Source: Halorussus sp. MSC15.2 (GTDB lineage: Archaea; Halobacteriota; Halobacteria; Halobacteriales; Haladaptataceae). Taken from it: a stretch of 64,000 nucleotides of DNA. The notes beneath the pieces are model-generated. The model did no database searches. It saw only the letters and a program-made list of their open reading frames with translations, and was not told the origin of the DNA. The stretch spans positions 62,001-126,000 of the forward strand of contig NZ_VSLZ01000001.1 of NCBI RefSeq assembly GCF_010747475.1, written 5' to 3'. Shown piece by piece: positions 1 to 64,000 of the stretch. The first letter of the stretch is position 1. Every line of letters starts with the position of its first letter. Position numbers and translations under genes: made by a program.

Positions 1-867
1 CTCGTAGTTCTCGCGGACCTTCAGGCCGAGCATGCGGTCTTCCATCATGTCGGTGCGGCCGACGCCGTAACTCCCGGCGAGGTCGTTGAGGTACTCGATT
101 AGCTGGACGGCGGGCATCTCTTCCCCGTCTTCAACCGGCGGTTGAAGGCTCGTCGAGGTTCCCTCGACGGTGTCGATGGCGACCGGGTAGCCGTCCTCGA
201 AGGCGATTTCGATGGTCTCGAACTCGCCGTCCTCGGTCGTCTGCTGGCCGGGCGCGTCGGTCCACTCGTAGATGTCCTCCGGCGGGACGTAGCCGGGGTC
301 TTCGAGGTCCGCGCCCTCGACCGAGCGACTCCAGAGGTTGGTGTCGATGGACCAGTCGCCCTCGTTACCGCCCTCGACGGGGAGGCCCTTCTCGTCGGCG
401 TACTCCATCTCCCACTCGCGTGTCAGGCCGAGTTCGCGGACGGGCGCGATGACCTCCAAGTCCGAGTCGCGCCAGACCGCCTCGAAGCGCAGTTGGTCGT
501 TTCCTTTGCCGGTACAGCCGTGGGCGACGGCGTCGCAGTCGTTCTCCACGGCCACGTCGAGGATGGCCTCGGCGATGACGGGGCGCGCCAGCGCGGTGCC
601 GAGCGGGTAGCCCTGATACGTCGCGTTGGCCTTCACTGCGTCGAGGCACTGGTCGGCGAACGCGTCTTTCGCGTCCACGACGTAGTGGTCGAGGTCGAGC
701 GCGTCGGCGGTCTCCTCGGCCTCGTCGAACTCCTCGGCGGGTTGGCCGACGTCTACCGTGACGCCGATTACTTCGTCGTAGTCGTACTCCTCTTCGAGCA
801 GCGGGACGCATACTGTGGTGTCGAGTCCGCCCGAGAAGGCGAGCGCGACGGTGTTGTTATCTGTCAT
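1..867 (-). CDS. argG: Argininosuccinate synthase, C-terminus cut by window edge
   Basis: This enzyme condenses citrulline and aspartate to argininosuccinate with ATP, the penultimate step of arginine biosynthesis in the cytoplasm. The protein starts at an ATG and reads MTDNNTVALAFSGGLDTTVC, which holds the N-type PP-loop ATP-binding motif (SGGLDT). Further on it has AHGCTGKGNDQLRFE, a family signature for substrate binding. About 289 residues are visible and the family has about 400, so the missing part is the C-terminal multimerisation region. A TATA-like stretch lies about 27 nt upstream of the ATG. Its usual partner argH is not in the window and would be expected to the left. Confidence 0.96.
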   Translation of the reverse strand, partial: MTDNNTVALAFSGGLDTTVCVPLLEEEYDYDEVIGVTVDVGQPAEEFDEAEETADALDLDHYVVDAKDAFADQCLDAVKANATYQGYPLGTALARPVIAEAILDVAVENDCDAVAHGCTGKGNDQLRFEAVWRDSDLEVIAPVRELGLTREWEMEYADEKGLPVEGGNEGDWSIDTNLWSRSVEGADLEDPGYVPPEDIYEWTDAPGQQTTEDGEFETIEIAFEDGYPVAIDTVEGTSTSLQPPVEDGEEMPAVQLIEYLNDLAGSYGVGRTDMMEDRMLGLKVRENYE

Positions 868-1177
868 GTTGGGTGTAGTGTGTTGTCGTGTGTCTTATTC
901 GGAACGTGGTTCGCTGACGATACGGGTGACGTCGGCGGCAAACTCGGAACAATCGTGGGATGAGGATAAGGTGGGGTCTAAAGGGACCCCGGTCGTCGTC
1001 GCGGCGCGAGAACGAGGGTGGACACGCGGCTCTGGGCGGGTGCGAACGAACCCGAGCCGTGAGTCCCTGTCATCGTCATCTCCTTCGGGTCCGAGGGGTT
1101 TAAACTCTATCGGCGCGGCAAGGATTACAGTCAATGGGGCGACACCTACTCGCCGAACGGAACCAGTCGCGAGTCCG
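868..1177. other. Intergenic region between argG and the sensor kinase gene
   Basis: No convincing gene is visible. Near 891-900 is a TATA-like stretch for argG on the minus strand. A second TATA-like TTTAAA near 1100 faces no recognisable downstream gene. The 3' end of the minus-strand kinase gene enters from the right. Confidence 0.4.
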
Positions 1178-61627: not shown

Positions 61628-62077
61628 ATGAGTCGGCCCGACCGCGGAAGCGGTCTCCTCCTCGGCGCGGGGGCGTTCGGTTTCGGACTCGGCGCGCTCC
61701 TCGACGTGGTGGTCTTCCACCTGATTCTCCAGTGGCATCACCTGCTCTCGGACCGCATTCGGACGACGACTCTGGACGGTCTGCGGGCGAACATCTACTA
61801 CGACGGCCTGTTCTCGCTGGCCATGGTCGGCGTGCTGCTGGTCGGCGCGGGCCTGCTGTGGCGGGCGCTGAATCGGTCGGCGGAGTCGCGCTCGGCGGTG
61901 CGAGCGTTCGGCGGTGTCCTCGTCGGTACCGGAGTGTTCAACGTCTTCGACGGAATCGTGGACCACTACGTGCTGAACATCCACGACGCGGTCCACGGGA
62001 CGCAGGCGTTCAATCCCCACTGGGTCGGTGCGAGTCTGCTGCTCCTCGGGGCGGGTATTCTGGTCGTGACGAGGTAG
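61628..62077 (+). CDS. DUF2243-family membrane protein
   Basis: A 149-residue protein with four helices: LLLGAGAFGFGLGALLDVVV, YYDGLFSLAMVGVLLVGAGL, GGVLVGTGVFNVFDGIVDHY and WVGASLLLLGAGILVVTR. Conserved histidines lie near membrane faces (FHLILQWHHLLSD; DHYVLNIHDAVHG), the DUF2243 pattern. The family may bind heme or metal, but this is not shown. It follows the LVIVD gene by 64 nt on the same strand. Confidence 0.8.
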   Translation: MSRPDRGSGLLLGAGAFGFGLGALLDVVVFHLILQWHHLLSDRIRTTTLDGLRANIYYDGLFSLAMVGVLLVGAGLLWRALNRSAESRSAVRAFGGVLVGTGVFNVFDGIVDHYVLNIHDAVHGTQAFNPHWVGASLLLLGAGILVVTR

Positions 62078-62193: not shown

Positions 62194-63009
62194 TTACGAT
62201 TCGTGGAGACGTCTGTACAGTTCCGTCGGCAAGATTAGGACGCGAGGCGGTCCAGTTTCACCGCGGACGGGGAACATCGTCACGTTACCGACTTCGACTG
62301 CTCCGAGCACGTTCATCGTCGAGAGGTCGTAGCAGCGGTCCGAGTCGCCGACGCGATACATCTCACTCGTCACATCTACGGACCCCGAAAGTGGGACGAG
62401 TATCGAAAGGACGGCGTCGGCTACCTTGAGAAGTATCGGAACGAGAATCACCGCCGTTCCGAGGATGTGGTCCGGAACGTATGCAATCGAAGCTGCAGCG
62501 AACCACGCTCCCAGTACCACTGCCGCCGAGAGTCGGCCGATATCGATAGAATCGAATACACGCTTTCCATCGACTCCCATCACTGTGACGACCTGTCCAA
62601 GCGAACGTTTCCCGCCGAACATGTAGACTGTCAGCACGATACCGACGATACCGAGCGACGAAACGCCGGACAGCACGACGTACCGCCACGACTCGGAAAC
62701 GAGGCGGTCTGACGACGGTGAGAGTAGGAGTAGTGGGACGTTCGAGAGGACGAACACGAGGAAGCCATACACTCCACCGAACTTTGCGTACGCGAACGCC
62801 CGAAGCGGTCGCCACGAATCGAAGTCGACTCGCCAACTGACGAGTCCCGGTCTCACGTTCTCGTTCGGTTCCATCGGTATCGCTGTCAGTCGAGACACAC
62901 TCGACGAGGAGGGAGAATCTTGTGGTCGCTCGTGGAGTCGAGTTCTCAGACGAACGGTGGCGTCCACGATGTACTTGTCGATGCACTGAACGACAGTTCC
63001 GCAGTCCAT
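62194..63009 (-). CDS. Membrane protein downstream of a halocin-like remnant (possible immunity role)
   Basis: A 271-residue protein from ATG 63009 (MDCGTVVQCIDKYIVDATVR). Four or five helices follow: VYGFLVFVLSNVPLLLLSPS, YVVLSGVSSLGIVGIVLTVY, LSAAVVLGAWFAAASIAY, and ILGTAVILVPILLKVADAVL. A soluble C-terminus ends EVGNVTMFPVRGETGPPRVL. The ATG lies 6 nt after the stop of a cysteine-rich halocin-like frame, so they would be co-transcribed. An internal ATG at 62874 (MEPNENVRPG) is an alternative. Immunity or export are guesses from the position only. Codon use is AT-richer than in its neighbours. Confidence 0.6.
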   Translation of the reverse strand: MDCGTVVQCIDKYIVDATVRLRTRLHERPQDSPSSSSVSRLTAIPMEPNENVRPGLVSWRVDFDSWRPLRAFAYAKFGGVYGFLVFVLSNVPLLLLSPSSDRLVSESWRYVVLSGVSSLGIVGIVLTVYMFGGKRSLGQVVTVMGVDGKRVFDSIDIGRLSAAVVLGAWFAAASIAYVPDHILGTAVILVPILLKVADAVLSILVPLSGSVDVTSEMYRVGDSDRCYDLSTMNVLGAVEVGNVTMFPVRGETGPPRVLILPTELYRRLHES

Positions 63010-63015
63010 GAAGTT

Positions 63016-63248
63016 CTAGAAGTCATCGCCACAGACGTGGGAGATACAGCTGAAACACGCCGCGTAATCTGCCCATCCGGCGAGTTCACCCGATTTACAA
63101 GCAAGTCTGCAGTAACTACAAGCGCTAGGGAACGCGAGGTCCGCAGCACACGCGCCGAAACTGACGAGACACTCTTCCTTGACGCCTTCGGGATGATAAC
63201 CAGTACGGACTCGCCATCCGCTTCTTCAGACTTAAACCCTCGAAACCC
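63016..63248 (-). pseudogene. 5'-truncated halocin-C8-like cysteine-rich peptide gene
   Basis: The minus strand encodes SEEADGESVLVIIP, then after a one-base loss in a CCC run (63190-63192) EGVKEECLVSFGAC and on to a TAG at 63016-63018. The C-terminal part has eight cysteines with spacing C-x6-C-x9-C-x2-C-x3-C-x13-C-x2-C-x4-C, and the ending CGDDF. This is like the C-terminal bacteriocin domain of halocin-C8-type precursors: hydrophobic strand, acidic join, then a Cys-rich core. No start codon is found before the upstream TAG (63249-63251), so the exported precursor part is missing. Confidence is limited. Confidence 0.45.
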
Positions 63249-63260
63249 CTACCTCCCTCC

Positions 63261-64000
63261 ATGACTACCGAGGCCCGCGAGTTCTGTCCGAACTGCGGGG
63301 ACCCCATCGAGAACGACCCCGCCGAGCGGACGCCCCTCCCCGACGCGACTGGCAAACGCGGCAGGGAACAGAAGCTCTGCGATTCGTGCTACTTCGACCG
63401 ATTCGACCTCGTGGACGCGCCCGAGCGCATCGAGGTCCGCGTCTGCTCGCAGTGCGGTGCGGTCCACCGCGGCAACCGCTGGGTGGACGTTGACGCCCGC
63501 GACTACACCGACATCGCCATCGAGGAGGTCAGCGAGGCGCTGGGCGTCCACCTCGACGCCCACGACGTGTCGTGGCAGGTGGACCCCGAGCAGGTGGACC
63601 AGAACACGATTCGGATGCACTGTCACTTCTCGGGCATCGTCCGGGACACGTTCGTCGAGGAGGACGTGGTCGTCCCCGTGAAGATTTCGCGCCAGACCTG
63701 CGACCGGTGCGGGCGAATCGCCGGGGACTACTACGCCAGCATCGTGCAGGTCCGCGCGGTGGACCGCACCCCCACCGCCGAGGAGATAGAGCGCGCCGAG
63801 GAGATAGCCAACGAAATCGTCGCCGAGATGGAGGCGACGGGCGACCGGAACGCCTTCGTCACGGAGGTCAGCGAGACCGACGATGGCGTGAACCTCAAGG
63901 TCTCGACCAACAAGATAGGCATGAAGATATCCCAGAAGATAGTCGAGGAGTTCGGCGGTAGCTTCTCGGACTCCGAGACGCTCGTGACCGAGGACGAGGA
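63261..64000 (+). CDS. NMD3-like protein, 3' end cut by the window
   Basis: 246 codons are visible of an archaeal NMD3-family protein, whose eukaryotic relative exports the 60S subunit. Four C-x2-C zinc pairs are visible: FCPNCGDPIEND, KLCDSCYFDRFD, VRVCSQCGAVHRG and QTCDRCGRIAG. Then comes EEIANEIVAEMEATGDRNAF and VSTNKIGMKISQKIVEEFGG. A CTTAAA box near 63231-63236 lies about 27 nt upstream of the ATG. The role in archaea is not established; ribosome biogenesis is likely. Confidence 0.9.
   Translation, partial: MTTEAREFCPNCGDPIENDPAERTPLPDATGKRGREQKLCDSCYFDRFDLVDAPERIEVRVCSQCGAVHRGNRWVDVDARDYTDIAIEEVSEALGVHLDAHDVSWQVDPEQVDQNTIRMHCHFSGIVRDTFVEEDVVVPVKISRQTCDRCGRIAGDYYASIVQVRAVDRTPTAEEIERAEEIANEIVAEMEATGDRNAFVTEVSETDDGVNLKVSTNKIGMKISQKIVEEFGGSFSDSETLVTEDE

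Follow-up and report, generated by a model that had tools for sequence, protein, structure and literature searches.

A probable remnant of a provirus-borne, halocin-like precursor gene beside an orphaned candidate immunity gene in Halorussus sp. MSC15.2

The DUF2243-nmd3 intergenic segment

The window analysed here is a stretch of 64 kb from Halorussus sp. MSC15.2. Towards its end, two host genes, encoding a DUF2243 membrane protein and an nmd3-family protein, enclose a segment that contains a gene for a further membrane protein and the 3' end of a cysteine-rich precursor gene (Table 1). The DUF2243 stop codon and the nmd3 start codon, 61-192 bp apart in six congeners, are separated by 1,183 bp in this window and by 1,021 bp in Halorussus aquaticus. 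Because the site is near-empty in the six congeners, the AT-rich pair of about 1.1 kb was gained. Its GC content is 57.9% (55.1% in the remnant) versus 65.4% for the window, and equally low values occur in 2.2% of windows of equal size. An earlier note on this DNA had proposed transfer from the AT-richness of both genes; the low GC content is confirmed, and transfer is supported by the near-empty site in the six congeners and by an intact pair in a provirus of another genome. In H. aquaticus, the left junction is the same, most of the cysteine-rich part is missing and the membrane-protein gene is kept. The simplest history is a gain in the common ancestor of Halorussus sp. MSC15.2 and H. aquaticus, followed by decay.

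Table 1. Features at the locus, in window coordinates
Feature	Position	Strand	Remarks
DUF2243 membrane protein gene	61628..62077	+	other host flank; PF10002, E=9e-35
Acquired segment	62078..63211		between DUF2243 gene and nmd3 leader; 57.9% GC
Membrane protein gene	62194..62874	-	226 aa; candidate immunity/accessory protein; PHROG 24788
Remnant, 3' end of ten-Cys Tat-signal precursor gene	62959..63183	-	matches P0001 residues 240-315
Cys 9 and Cys 10 codons (..DCGTVVQC..)	62983..63003	-	aligned with P0001; earlier taken as start of the membrane protein
In-frame TAG splitting the remnant	63016..63018	-	eight Cys before, two after
nmd3 leader/promoter	63212..63260	+	CTTCTTCAGACTTAAACCC; present across the genus
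nmd3-family gene	63261..64000	+	host flank; runs off the window; PF04981, E=5e-54

The remnant was noticed as a minus-strand open frame that reads ...EECLVSFGACAADLAFPSACSYCRLACKSGELAGWADYAACFSCISHVCGDDF* up to the TAG and contains, as the earlier note had described, eight cysteines in the spacing C-x2-C-x3-C and C-x2-C-x4-C. A scan of all six frames of the window for the strict signature C-x2-C-x3-C-x(6-24)-C-x2-C-x4-C gave a single match, at the remnant, and none of 20 triplet-shuffled windows contained it. Searches of Pfam and NCBIfam gave no match for the remnant, and its use as a query against other members of the genus Halorussus revealed no relative. The neighbouring membrane protein, used as the query across the order, pointed to G101, a genome from another genus of the same family, which encodes the intact precursor P0001. 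The remnant is 77% identical to P0001 (E=1.6e-35) with one internal TAG, and tblastn gives 78% over 74 aa, in agreement with the earlier proposal that the C-terminal part of a secreted, Cys-rich precursor survives here. By this homology, the eight-cysteine frame belongs to the 3' quarter of a defunct precursor gene, and it is real and no product of chance.

All ten cysteine codons of the precursor C-domain are kept in the window, and the columns of Cys 9 and Cys 10, which follow the TAG, are invariant in the 13-member family alignment. Since the homology to P0001 spans the whole remnant, across the TAG and beyond the ATG at 63009, this ATG encodes an internal methionine of the defunct precursor and does not start the membrane-protein gene. 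Compared with H. aquaticus, the window has one additional base close to the natural end of the remnant, and the frame therefore continues into the spacer, which accounts for the long frame of 271 aa. At the other end, homology stops at 63183 and the N-terminal three quarters are gone; the nmd3 leader stands where the N-terminal part of the precursor should be. The window copy is thus a fragment that carries the ten invariant cysteines and the CxxCxxxC/CxxCxxxxC signature of the family, split by the TAG, and lacks the Tat signal and the N-domain, as the earlier note had recognized. Without start, signal and N-domain, the peptide cannot be made from it. A frame correction at a CCC run, where the note had suspected a lost base, was rejected because the homologous part begins only after this run, which falls within or next to the nmd3 leader; the peptide encoded upstream of the run matches nothing.

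The intact precursor and its family in haloarchaea

P0001 has 318 aa, a twin-arginine signal (NRRIFLQS) and a hydrophobic C-terminus with ten cysteines, the GRAVY values being 0.78 for the C-domain and -0.44 for the N-part. The piece MDCGTVVQCIDKYIVD, with which the membrane protein was formerly taken to begin, forms the C-terminal end of P0001 in G101. The intact pair is present in two copies with 46-48% GC within a tandem element of 27,768 bp, which also carries integrase, terminase-like and head-protein genes at 61-65% GC. The pair is low-GC cargo of a tandemly repeated provirus. The duplicated provirus (G101:C1:1952000-2015000; L095, L010, L096, L011 and L097) additionally encodes a low-GC (41%) Tat-signal protein of 329 aa and has a gene resembling a PIN-domain toxin. 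P0001 and P0002 match PHROG 23815 and PHROG 24788, respectively, over their full length, and both PHROGs are labelled 'unknown function'. The window copy differs from them in lying on the chromosome with a defunct precursor. A search of viral contigs with P0001 returned eight pattern matches but no relative among them, a search of the INPHARED phages returned no relative, and the PDB contained no relatives of the precursor or the membrane protein beyond Tat signals.

Precursors of the P0001 family, with a Tat signal, an N-domain of about 200 aa and a Cys-rich end, were found in about 40 of the 384 genomes of the order, a number counted by hand from matches that extend beyond the signal; the tally of 188/384 obtained with the family alignment consists mostly of matches to the Tat signal only. 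Homologues with the same cysteine pattern, the lack of which would have spoken against the earlier note, do exist, the signature being present in 14 of the 22 precursors found with P0001. The alignment of 13 relatives has a mean column identity of about 30%, and the pair of Tat arginines and the ten cysteines are invariant in it, as expected of a secreted disulfide-rich peptide. For a second subgroup, hhalign recovered the relationship of the N-domain (probability 98%) but no detectable one for the Cys domain, and this pattern suggests exchangeable C-terminal peptides. For the family representatives tested, no Pfam or NCBIfam model matched beyond the Tat signal. This widespread precursor family, which is built like halocin C8 but differs from it in sequence, is apparently undescribed.

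The genome of Halorussus sp. MSC15.2 encodes two more ten-Cys members. The first (C1:830018; L159, G000:C1:829000-832500, ORF 1019-2116) is an apparently intact Tat-signal precursor of 365 aa, with a gene for a 129-aa membrane protein upstream on the opposite strand. The second (C5:228454; L160, G000:C5:227500-230500, ORF 922-1767) is an apparently intact precursor of 281 aa. Shortly upstream of it, a 64-aa frame with 16 cysteines (L160, 155-349) may encode a metal-binding peptide or be a chance frame. In another genome, four Cys-rich Tat precursors with interspersed small membrane proteins form an arsenal-like array within about 7 kb (L161, G241:C17:300000-312000).

The membrane-protein gene

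The gene for the membrane protein most likely starts at 62874 (MEPNENV...) and not at 63009. The earlier note, which had placed the Cys-rich frame directly before its ATG, was thus right about a linked membrane-protein gene and wrong about its start. The protein matches the PHROG 24788 profile over 225 of its 226 residues (E=2.6e-75) and is 88% identical to an intact ORF of H. aquaticus and 52% identical to P0002, while the longer frame in which the gene lies had no match in Pfam or NCBIfam. A low-confidence AlphaFold2 model from the single sequence (mean pLDDT 48) has about four helices and, at the C-terminus, a small beta part.

In a search of 392 genomes with this protein, all five strong loci adjoin a ten-Cys precursor or its remnant. 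About 29 weak, mostly partial matches sit elsewhere, and none of the 26 checked has a precursor within 1.5 kb. The co-occurrence that the earlier note had named as support therefore holds for the strong loci and fails for the weak ones. Distant relatives, mostly matching in the C-terminal part, stand alone. A second, distant pair of precursor and partner is located on a plasmid of Natronococcus occultus. Its partner, P0006, aligns end to end with the window protein (pairwise E 5e-6 to 2e-5), and both match one stand-alone haloarchaeal family in their C-terminal ~90 residues; with a profile built without it, P0006 hardly exceeds the top score among 2,000 shuffles. The case for homology between the two proteins is only moderate.

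Small membrane proteins also recur beside other precursors. They are encoded next downstream of 11 of 30 family precursors (p=0.02) and of 14 of 24 TIGR04449 proteins (p=0.0002), in comparison to 7 of 49 background genes, which were taken from the 64-kb window only; two tandem precursors were disregarded, and duplicates in the TIGR04449 set were removed by eye. Many family precursors in this test are without an adjacent membrane gene. The recurring neighbours would fit immunity proteins that vary with the peptide.

Between Halorussus sp. MSC15.2 and H. aquaticus, dN/dS is 0.67-0.79 for the membrane gene, 0.09 for nmd3 and 0.13-0.22 for the DUF2243 gene. The 26 amino-acid changes observed are close to the 27 expected at random placement, and the two-species dN/dS gave no sign of purifying selection on the membrane gene. 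Its ORF shows no indels in 678 bp, as compared with about six in 300 bp of the flanks. With no indels at this dN/dS, the frame is kept while the sequence drifts or diversifies, and retention for immunity is possible. A competing explanation, which we consider tentative but take seriously, assigns the gene to export or processing, or to another role in the virus that carried it, and sees it now drifting to loss. The dN/dS between the two species and the stand-alone distant relatives are consistent with such a role; the position directly downstream of a precursor or remnant in every close relative, the small membrane neighbours of different precursors and the intact, indel-free frame argue against it.

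Relation to known systems and proposed role

Halocin C8 precursors share the overall design of P0001: they comprise about 280-320 aa with a Tat signal, a non-Cys N-part and a hydrophobic C-domain with about ten cysteines, and are often followed by a small membrane protein. ProC8 is exported by the Tat pathway and yields HalI and a 76-aa C-terminal peptide, and immunity to halocin C8 resides in HalI, the N-part of the precursor itself (PMC11509114), whereas the P0001 family has a separate candidate membrane immunity protein. Many C8-like genes (L043-L045, L099-L128) are nevertheless followed by a small membrane protein of 61-68 aa or 120-132 aa, despite the immunity attributed to the N-part. 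Our comparisons are based on annotated C8-like proteins, which were found at up to 58% identity with a C8 reference peptide as the lead query. TIGR04449 proteins were detected in 51 of 392 genomes, including Halorussus sp. MSC15.2 (C4:191504). The locus in the latter (L163, G000:C4:190500-192800) contains a genuine TIGR04449 protein at 999-1637, followed by an 83-aa membrane protein with two helices (679-930, minus strand).

The window could accordingly contain a pseudogene of the true halocin C8 family, in line with the size, Tat signal, two-part layout and ten cysteines of P0001, with the occurrence of TIGR04449 proteins in genomes including this very one, and with a weak resemblance of the TIGR04449 protein L032 to P0001, located in the signal region. 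We consider this unlikely. Neither the remnant nor P0001 matches TIGR04449 at E<=10, while real C8-like proteins score 46-49 bits at a cut-off of 24 bits. The spacing C-x2-C-x3-C..C-x2-C-x(3-4)-C, found in the remnant and in the P0001-search precursors, is absent from all 31 proteins of the TIGR04449 group. In hhalign comparisons, both halves of the P0001 group reach probabilities of 0.3-1.3% against C8, the same as reversed or permuted controls. P0001 and the family alignment thus combine a Tat signal and a ten-Cys C-terminal peptide in one precursor, but share neither the model match nor the cysteine spacing nor the profile homology of N- and C-parts. The halocin C8-type assignment made earlier is retained for the design and not for the family: by model match, cysteine spacing and profile comparison, membership of the remnant in the halocin C8 family was not detectable.

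The Tat pathway often exports folded cofactor proteins, and CxxC motifs can bind metal. On this basis, the precursor might instead be a secreted metal- or haem-binding redox protein, with the membrane gene unrelated to it. This, too, appears improbable, because the ten cysteines are invariant while little else is conserved, the C-domain is hydrophobic, the distribution is patchy with carriage on a plasmid and a provirus and in multi-gene arrays such as that on C17 of G241, and the family proteins match no redox family. A chance Cys-rich frame in non-coding DNA, as the missing start codon and signal peptide in the window might suggest, can be dismissed given the close match to an intact gene, the ten retained cysteines and the absence of the signature from shuffled controls.

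We regard the locus as probably the remnant of a provirus-borne halocin-like precursor, together with an orphaned candidate immunity or accessory protein. As the family is not recognized by the halocin C8 model, its antimicrobial function is suggested by its architecture, and the published maturation of ProC8 would serve as a natural model for P0001-type precursors. By analogy, the precursor would be exported via Tat and cleaved before the first cysteine, which would release the hydrophobic ten-Cys C-domain, possibly stabilized by five disulfides. The released peptide would most likely attack the membranes of other haloarchaea and work like halocin C8, and the downstream membrane protein would most likely act in immunity or as an accessory protein, shielding the membrane of the producer. 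The pair probably came from a virus or plasmid; in the simplest history it entered this site, with DUF2243 on one side and nmd3 on the other, before Halorussus sp. MSC15.2 and H. aquaticus diverged. The peptide gene then died by loss of its N-terminal part, an in-frame stop and a slipped end, and the membrane gene has stayed open.

Two other archaeal systems offer parallels by description. SSV9 B310 and its relatives are secreted toxins of Sulfolobus spindle-shaped viruses that are accompanied by small linked genes and occur as broken alleles in some viruses (PMC8628083). They resemble the P0001 pair in these respects but belong to another archaeal phylum and other hosts. Carriage by a provirus would benefit the infected host, as described for these virus toxins (PMC8628083). 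HmHapP/HFX_0892 of Haloferax mediterranei is likewise a haloarchaeal secreted precursor, activated by protease to give an antagonistic fragment (PMC12893001), but there the activity is in the N-terminal fragment.

Few halocins are known at the sequence level, and annotation pipelines recognize the C8 domain only. Whether the P0001 family represents a second class of haloarchaeal antimicrobials, with a conserved secreted N-domain, exchangeable Cys-rich peptides and their own small membrane immunity proteins, present in about a tenth of the genomes and spread by proviruses and plasmids, seems to us evenly balanced. If true, this class, defined by ten invariant cysteines, would have been overlooked despite being about as common as halocin C8 (about 40/384 genomes compared with 51/392 for TIGR04449), and it would come with a candidate immunity protein in the membrane and with proviruses as a vehicle of spread. 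The constant N-domain with its differing C-terminal peptides would then provide a handle for mining archaeal anti-archaeal peptides, the targets of which are poorly known.
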